Shown here: positions 16,222 to 17,692 of the stretch, one piece after another | Numbering within the stretch: the stretch's first letter is position 1 | Layout: the number at the start of each line of letters is the position of its first letter | NCBI GenBank assembly: GCA_029264775.1 | Contig: JARHYT010000016.1 | Coordinates: forward strand, 1 to 43,292 | Length of the DNA stretch: 43,292 bases | Direction of reading: 5' to 3' | DNA from: Helicobacter sp. | GTDB taxonomy: Bacteria > Campylobacterota > Campylobacteria > Campylobacterales > Helicobacteraceae | Position numbers and translations under genes: made by a program | Notes under the pieces: model-generated | Seen by the model: the letters and a program-made list of their open reading frames with translations, nothing else | What the model was told of the DNA's origin: nothing | The model's database searches: none

Positions 16222-16227
16222 TATAAT
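16222..16227 (+). promoter_or_regulatory. Predicted -10 box
   Basis: TATAAT preceded by T-rich runs (TTTTTTTAGTTTTTTTGGG), the typical Helicobacter/Campylobacter sigma-70 layout, 29 bases before the next ATG. Confidence 0.5.
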
Positions 16228-16255
16228 ACGCATTTGCAAATTACAATAAGGAGAA

Positions 16256-17692
16256 ATGATGCTAGAGGGAAAAATTATAAGTTTGGATAAAGAAATGAAG
16301 GAAGGAAAAGTAGAACAAGCTTTAAACAAACGAGTATTTCCATTTTCTTTTAGTGTTTGGGAGGGGGAAGAGGAGGAGCTAACACCAAATATTGATGTTG
16401 AGTTTCTAGTAGAGAATCGTATTGTTGTAAAAATGAAATTTAAAATTTCCCTTGAGGATGAAGAAGCTATACCTGTTACAAAATCACCAGAAGATTGCAT
16501 TAATGAATACTTTTTAAGAGAAAAGTCTATACTTAGTCATCATAAAGATTTTATAGATGGACATAAAGAACTTGATTTTATGCGTATGAAAAGATTTTTA
16601 TTCACTGCCTATAATGATTTATGTGATTTAGATTCTATGCTTGAAAACAAAGAGCTTAAAGCAGTGAAACATGAGGTTTCATCTCTATACAAGGATTTTG
16701 AAGAATATAATAGAAAAATTCAATATCCGTTGTTATATTGCTTCGAAAAAATATTTCTTGTAAGACAAGTTGCCTTTACAAATTTAGAGCAATATATAGA
16801 GGATGTAAAAATAAGTATGGCTAGTGCTAAGTCAGAATGCGAACCTCTTGGTAGGAGACTAGAGGAAGAGGAAAGGAATTTAAAACTAATACCAGATAAA
16901 AAAAGTCGTGAATTTTTAGAATATGAAAAAGAAGTAAAGGTTTTGCGTAGGAGATTTGTTGATTTAATAGATTATATAGCAAAGCAAAAAGATATAATTG
17001 CAAGGGAAACTGCTCGCATGCAAGTTTTTAAGGAAAAACATTATAAGACATTTGCAGATGTATTTGCACCGATGACAGCAGAAATTAAAGCTAGATTTCT
17101 TCAATTACTTAATACAAAAGGATATGATTTAGACAAAGCTATGTGGTCTAGGGCAAAAACAAATCAATATGTAAAGAAATTCTTTAGAGATGCTGATATT
17201 CATGGGGGATATAATTCAAGAACTTATCTGCGATATTTTTTAAAAGGTCTTGATAAAAATAAAGTTGTTTCGCCAAAAACTAAAGAATTATTTGGATTGC
17301 TAAAGGACTTAGAAAAAACTAGCATACAAAATGTTATGGTTATACAAGAAAATGATACAAAATCATTTAAATCACAGCAATTAATAGAGAGAGTAGATTC
17401 GGCATTAAAGATACTAGTAGAACATGATCCATTTAGTGCGCTTACAAAATTAGGGCAAAAACCGCAAGATATAGTAGTTATAGATTACAAAATTAATGGT
17501 TTATTGGCTTTTGATTTTATAAGAGAGTACAACGAAACACCAAATGCAAAAAAAGATATAATTTTTATAGTAGTTACTCCAACACCTTTAGACTATAATA
17601 CTATGGAAGAAGGAAGGAATCTAGGTGTAGAGTATTATGTCTTAGCAGATGATTCTGAATCTTTTTCAGATGCAATAAGAATGGCAATTTAA
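16256..17692 (+). CDS. Unknown protein: OB/cold-shock-like N-terminus, helical middle, degenerate receiver domain
   Basis: I do not recognise a named gene. Residues about 1-70 (MLEGKIISLD, then FPFSFSVWEG and VEFLVENRIVV) resemble a cold-shock/OB fold. About 80-340 is charged and mostly helical, with a likely coiled coil near 190-260. The last 120 residues look like a response-regulator receiver. NVMVIQEND stands for strand 1. VVIDYKING carries the phospho-acceptor-like aspartate (about 410). FIVVTPTP has the conserved Thr (about 441). The lysine of strand 5 is missing (YYVLADD), so phosphorylation is doubtful. AAGGAG at 16248-16253 fits the second ATG (16259) better than the first. It is monocistronic with its own promoter. 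The function is unknown. Confidence 0.75.
   Translation: MMLEGKIISLDKEMKEGKVEQALNKRVFPFSFSVWEGEEEELTPNIDVEFLVENRIVVKMKFKISLEDEEAIPVTKSPEDCINEYFLREKSILSHHKDFIDGHKELDFMRMKRFLFTAYNDLCDLDSMLENKELKAVKHEVSSLYKDFEEYNRKIQYPLLYCFEKIFLVRQVAFTNLEQYIEDVKISMASAKSECEPLGRRLEEEERNLKLIPDKKSREFLEYEKEVKVLRRRFVDLIDYIAKQKDIIARETARMQVFKEKHYKTFADVFAPMTAEIKARFLQLLNTKGYDLDKAMWSRAKTNQYVKKFFRDADIHGGYNSRTYLRYFLKGLDKNKVVSPKTKELFGLLKDLEKTSIQNVMVIQENDTKSFKSQQLIERVDSALKILVEHDPFSALTKLGQKPQDIVVIDYKINGLLAFDFIREYNETPNAKKDIIFIVVTPTPLDYNTMEEGRNLGVEYYVLADDSESFSDAIRMAI

Follow-up and report, generated by a model that had tools for sequence, protein, structure and literature searches.

Pseudo-receivers are common, their mechanisms are largely unknown, and the bacterial representatives characterised so far often work through dimerisation or protein-protein contact (PMC12632262). 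The closest described counterparts of the protein presented here include the atypical response regulators FrzS and HP1043, which likewise display the receiver fold minus several of its five active-site residues, and FrzS also couples its pseudo-receiver to a coiled coil (PMC12632262). For the other end of the protein, likeness was found with the non-canonical cold-shock domains (CSDs) of Unr/CSDE1, which adopt the cold-shock fold but lack both the FGF and the (F/Y)FH motif for RNA binding; those of Drosophila Unr do not bind RNA independently and touch neighbouring domains (PMC7383231). Overlapping domain types (cold-shock-like, coiled coil and receiver) are also found in CnuA and CnuB of the type I CoCoNuT systems, which are McrBC-derived defence systems (PMC11090510).

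The window analysed here, a stretch of 43,292 nucleotides from Helicobacter sp. (contig JARHYT010000016.1), encodes an atypical response regulator whose domain architecture is new and whose core domain is unnamed. In contrast to the FrzS/HP1043-type regulators, its pseudo-receiver is C-terminal and shares the chain with a cold-shock-like domain as well as a helical core; unlike Unr/CSDE1, where Unr is a chain of nine domains (PMC7383231), it carries a single cold-shock-like domain within a bacterial protein. The open literature searched, with subscription papers mostly outside its scope, returned neither a paper on this protein or its architecture nor bacterial non-canonical CSDs of a like kind, and a term search of the pseudo-receiver review (PMC12632262) found no cold-shock or RNA-binding terms. 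The features of the locus were as follows, with residues numbered on a 477-aa protein (adding one gives the 478-aa numbering of an earlier sequence-only reading of this DNA).

16222–16227, + strand: -10 box TATAAT, probably of the gene's own promoter (from the sequence; nearly all orthologues shown have a similar box upstream)
16248–16253, + strand: Shine-Dalgarno AAGGAG, best spaced to the ATG at 16259
16259–17692, + strand: 477-aa protein, listed as ORF 16256–17692 (ORF and orthologue starts)
16259–16441, + strand: non-canonical cold-shock (OB) domain, residues 1–61 (AlphaFold2, Foldseek, HMMER, HHalign)
16481–17320, + strand: conserved helical core, residues 75–354 (conservation; nothing convincing in Pfam, NCBIfam or the PDB)
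16769–17155, + strand: long coiled-coil hairpin inside the core, residues 171–299 (AlphaFold2)
17330–17689, + strand: pseudo-receiver domain, residues 358–477 (AlphaFold2, Foldseek, alignment)
17345–17350, + strand: Gln-Glu replacing the Mg-binding acidic pair, residues 363–364 (receiver alignment)
17483–17485, + strand: Asp at the phosphoacceptor position, D409 (D410 in 478-aa numbering; receiver alignment)
17576–17578, + strand: Thr at the receiver Thr/Ser position, T440 (T441; receiver alignment)
17645–17647, + strand: Ala replacing the strand-5 Lys, A463 (A464; receiver alignment)

The ORF at 16256–17692 encodes 478 aa as listed. Orthologues begin with MLEG and the Shine-Dalgarno stands at a better distance from the ATG at 16259 than from that at 16256, so that the second ATG is the more likely start and the protein more likely counts 477 aa. 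Orthologues were 27 to 85% identical to the window protein, and dN/dS against the nearest relative (L002) was 0.07, which at the level of sequence indicates a real gene under purifying selection rather than a chance ORF. The gene likely has its own promoter, since the TATAAT-type box was kept upstream of nearly all orthologues shown though their flanking genes differ. A strong own promoter had been claimed from the sequence; the promoter itself was supported, but its strength was not, as a generic sigma-70 promoter scan gave no excess of sites over shuffles.

The gene stands alone, as had been read from the sequence, with a cysM-like gene 141 nt before it and a purH-like gene facing it in convergent orientation (neighbour names were read from the sequences, save where a family search was made). 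Neighbours varied between groups when the loci of Helicobacter orthologues were compared; guesses at function based on operons were dropped, because the flanking genes differ between Helicobacter subgroups. In H. pullorum-type genomes (L054, L064), the orthologue came shortly before a hisC-like gene, behind which lay fliF-, fliG- and fliH-like genes.

AlphaFold2, run on a 20-sequence alignment, yielded a full-length model with a mean pLDDT of 86, ordered as a cold-shock OB barrel (residues 1–61), a helical core (75–354) and a receiver fold (358–477); with a pTM of 0.59, the placement of these domains relative to each other is uncertain. Structure prediction and fold search, the check proposed with the sequence-only reading, thus recovered both the OB fold and the receiver topology, neither being missing.

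The N-terminal domain formed a five-stranded barrel (strands 2–10, 15–20, 26–30, 46–52 and 55–61) and reached a pLDDT of 89 when folded alone. Foldseek matched the isolated domain to CspE (3i2z, TM 0.79–0.80) and also to CspB (3pf4), the E-values being modest (0.003 at best), which is to be expected of a 68-residue query. A HMMER profile of 22 N-termini searched against PDB chains retrieved Unr fragments as top matches (E=1e-7, a total that sums several weak domain matches) and bacterial cold-shock proteins at E of about 0.01–0.1. When HHalign compared the N-terminal domain with canonical CSDs taken from related genomes, the probability was 90%, compared with 1.7% for the best of 30 column-shuffled controls. 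The resemblance to a cold-shock fold first seen in the letters was therefore recovered by all four methods. With regard to PF00313, a CSD-type five-stranded OB barrel and a profile relationship to CSDs were both present, and the family was not matched at the Pfam gathering score in the protein or in its own genome.

The RNP1 motif G[FYW]G[FYW] was found in none of the 22 N-termini; the positions of CspB W8, F15 and F17 are occupied by S, E and K in the window protein, which retains one Phe at an RNP2 position, and the domain is acidic (pI 4.8). Because the RNP aromatics are absent and the domain is acidic, the sequence gives no indication of nucleic-acid binding by this domain, although such binding is possible, and the earlier proposal that the protein links nucleic-acid binding to a pseudo-receiver found no support.

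A regulator that contacts RNA through a non-canonical face of its cold-shock fold, perhaps together with the basic core, while the pseudo-receiver modulates this binding, nevertheless constitutes the main rival to the scaffold role set out below, though we consider it rather unlikely. The cold-shock fold itself favors it, as do the pI of the core (8.7), the basic N-terminus of the type II paralogue (described below) and the lack of any PF00313 cold-shock protein in all 37 Helicobacteraceae genomes searched. In Sulfurospirillum-type genomes (L086, L081, L155, L163, L164), moreover, an RNase Y-like gene immediately precedes the orthologue. This neighborhood was not retained in Helicobacter, however, and along with the missing aromatics and the acidity of the domain, the inability of Unr domains of like type to bind RNA alone (PMC7383231) also argues against RNA binding.

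Residues 358–476 were modeled as alternating strands and helices, and Foldseek searches with the whole model found receivers such as Spo0F (1srr, TM 0.87 by target length, rmsd 1.7). At the five active-site positions, the alignment displayed Q-E-D-T-A, compared with D-D-D-T/S-K in intact CheY-type receivers, so that the canonical response regulator set (acidic pair, Asp, Thr/Ser, Lys) is incomplete. A receiver with D410 and T441 but lacking the strand-5 Lys had been predicted; fold and residues proved right, the Lys being replaced by Ala464, and the acidic pair, which had not been commented on, is also gone. The (beta-alpha)5 fold with QE for DD and A for K fits pseudo-receivers as defined in the literature (PMC12632262). 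The Pfam Response_reg gathering score was not reached (15.3 bits against a cut-off of 30.2), a cut-off that is no part of this definition, some pseudo-receivers being placed in other Pfam families.

A true response regulator, in which D410 would still be phosphorylated with E364 and T441 sufficing, appears improbable. Both D410 and T441 were retained in 9 of 9 sequences sampled from the nearest genus, and some distant relatives kept a full or nearly full active site (DDDAK in L028, DEDSK in L077). Against phosphorylation, the acidic pair was absent from the whole type I group of orthologues (0 of 20) and the Lys from all but one of the 20, while Asp was replaced by Glu in 5 and Thr/Ser by Val, Met or Ile in 9. 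Since L028 and L077 keep all or nearly all active-site residues, decay of the receiver probably took place inside the family.

Judged by conservation, the helical core that separates the end domains, missed in the sequence-only reading, is the defining and best-conserved part of the protein. Mean identity over 20 orthologues was 51.8% in the core and 41.2% and 38.1% at the ends, and near-invariant residues fell in the core, including the motifs RF..TA.N.L..D and W..A..S..I..FF...I.G...S.KT...Y.L..D. Two very long helices (171–209 and 217–299) were modeled within its helical stretch (77–354), forming a hairpin at about 171–299 that bears out the coiled coil suspected earlier. Pfam, NCBIfam, PHROGs and PADLOC assigned no family to the protein or its core, and the core profile retrieved only generic coiled coils from the PDB. 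The best family matches, vanR-C and LmuB among them, were rejected as far below cut-off or as coiled-coil matches. As no comparable family was found, the core motifs could equally form an enzymatic or ligand site.

Strong matches were obtained in 84 of 299 genomes across Campylobacterales, the close relatives picked up in a scan of GTDB genomes all belonged to Helicobacter or other Campylobacterales, and no relatives were found in the plasmid records or viral contigs searched. Type I orthologues were distributed in the Helicobacteraceae genera g1, g4, g7, g8, g10, g11 and g13. A second CSD-bearing paralogue (type II) occurred in most of these genera as well as in g2, g3, g5 and g12, with a copy in the genome of the window itself (L090:1245-2711, G000:C49); in related genera, the type II copy adjoins an ftsK-like gene (L160-L162). 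Being present in most Helicobacteraceae genera, the protein does look like the regular cellular component it had been taken for, at least in this lineage. Only weak matches were found in g6 (34 genomes), which probably comprises the gastric species, and in g9 (6 genomes), those listed corresponding to the receiver part. The N-terminal profile, run against 60 relatives, matched almost exclusively in long ORFs of 472–539 aa, the size typical of this family. A sulfur-cave metagenome contig (L069, DZAZ01000008.1) carried a distant CSD-less relative, and its title 'Helicobacter cetorum' looks doubtful.

The collected loci were dominated by the CSD, core and receiver-like architecture (85), followed by core with receiver-like domain (8), core alone (7), another N-terminus (5), a receiver ahead of core and receiver-like domain (3) and CSD with core (1). 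In the three loci with an added receiver (L026, L096, L030), an intact CheY-type receiver (DDDSK) replaces the CSD. Intact receiver and pseudo-receiver thus stand in one chain, as in PleD (receiver, pseudo-receiver and GGDEF; PMC12632262), but GGDEF is absent and the helical core sits between both receivers. Core-only genes (about 270–310 aa) were directly followed by a small-protein ORF in 6 of 7 loci (L146, L147, L148, L150, L151, L152). Four of the five small ORFs tested matched a cNMP-binding domain, those of L151 (E=1.3e-10) and L146 (5e-07) above the Pfam cut-off and those of L150 and L147 below it. Core-only and cNMP-binding-like genes may possibly form a conserved two-gene module.

Membership in a CoCoNuT-type defence system, of which the protein would be a subunit, seems highly improbable. 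Type I CoCoNuT proteins do use cold-shock, coiled-coil and receiver domains, but these are divided between CnuA and CnuB, that is, on separate proteins, and accompany a McrB GTPase and McrC that are absent here (PMC11090510). Type I membership was rejected on this McrB/McrC basis: McrC (PF10117) was not found in the genome of the window (87% complete) and was patchy in relatives, PADLOC gave no match, and the orthologues shown lie outside defence operons.

Both end domains look like pseudo-domains; they are variable and degenerate, whereas the core persists, so that function would reside in the core. Chances appear about even that the protein acts as a phosphorylation-independent cytosolic scaffold or adaptor; the lack of conserved neighbours among Helicobacter orthologues counts against this role, as does the alternative of an enzymatic or ligand site in the core. 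Such a scaffold is more likely than an ordinary RNA-binding switch, as both ends have lost most working residues of their folds, and true phosphorylation control and a CoCoNuT-type role are unlikely. The core may dimerise or hold a partner through its coiled coil, with both pseudo-domains serving as protein-docking surfaces that would tune this dimerisation or partner holding. The N-terminal slot would then be a replaceable input module, because in relatives this slot is either occupied by an intact CheY-type receiver or empty.

More tentatively, the family may represent a Campylobacterales-specific signalling module built on an undescribed helical core with pluggable input ends (the non-canonical CSD, the CheY-type receiver or the separate cNMP-binding-like partner), which could provide an undescribed second-messenger or RNA-linked control; a connection with RNA or with cyclic nucleotides is our inference. 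The protein offers a testable case of a bacterial protein with two pseudo-domains around a conserved core. Its hosts are enteric Helicobacter species, in which gene function is little studied, and the lack of strong matches in g6 and g9 provides a natural comparison.
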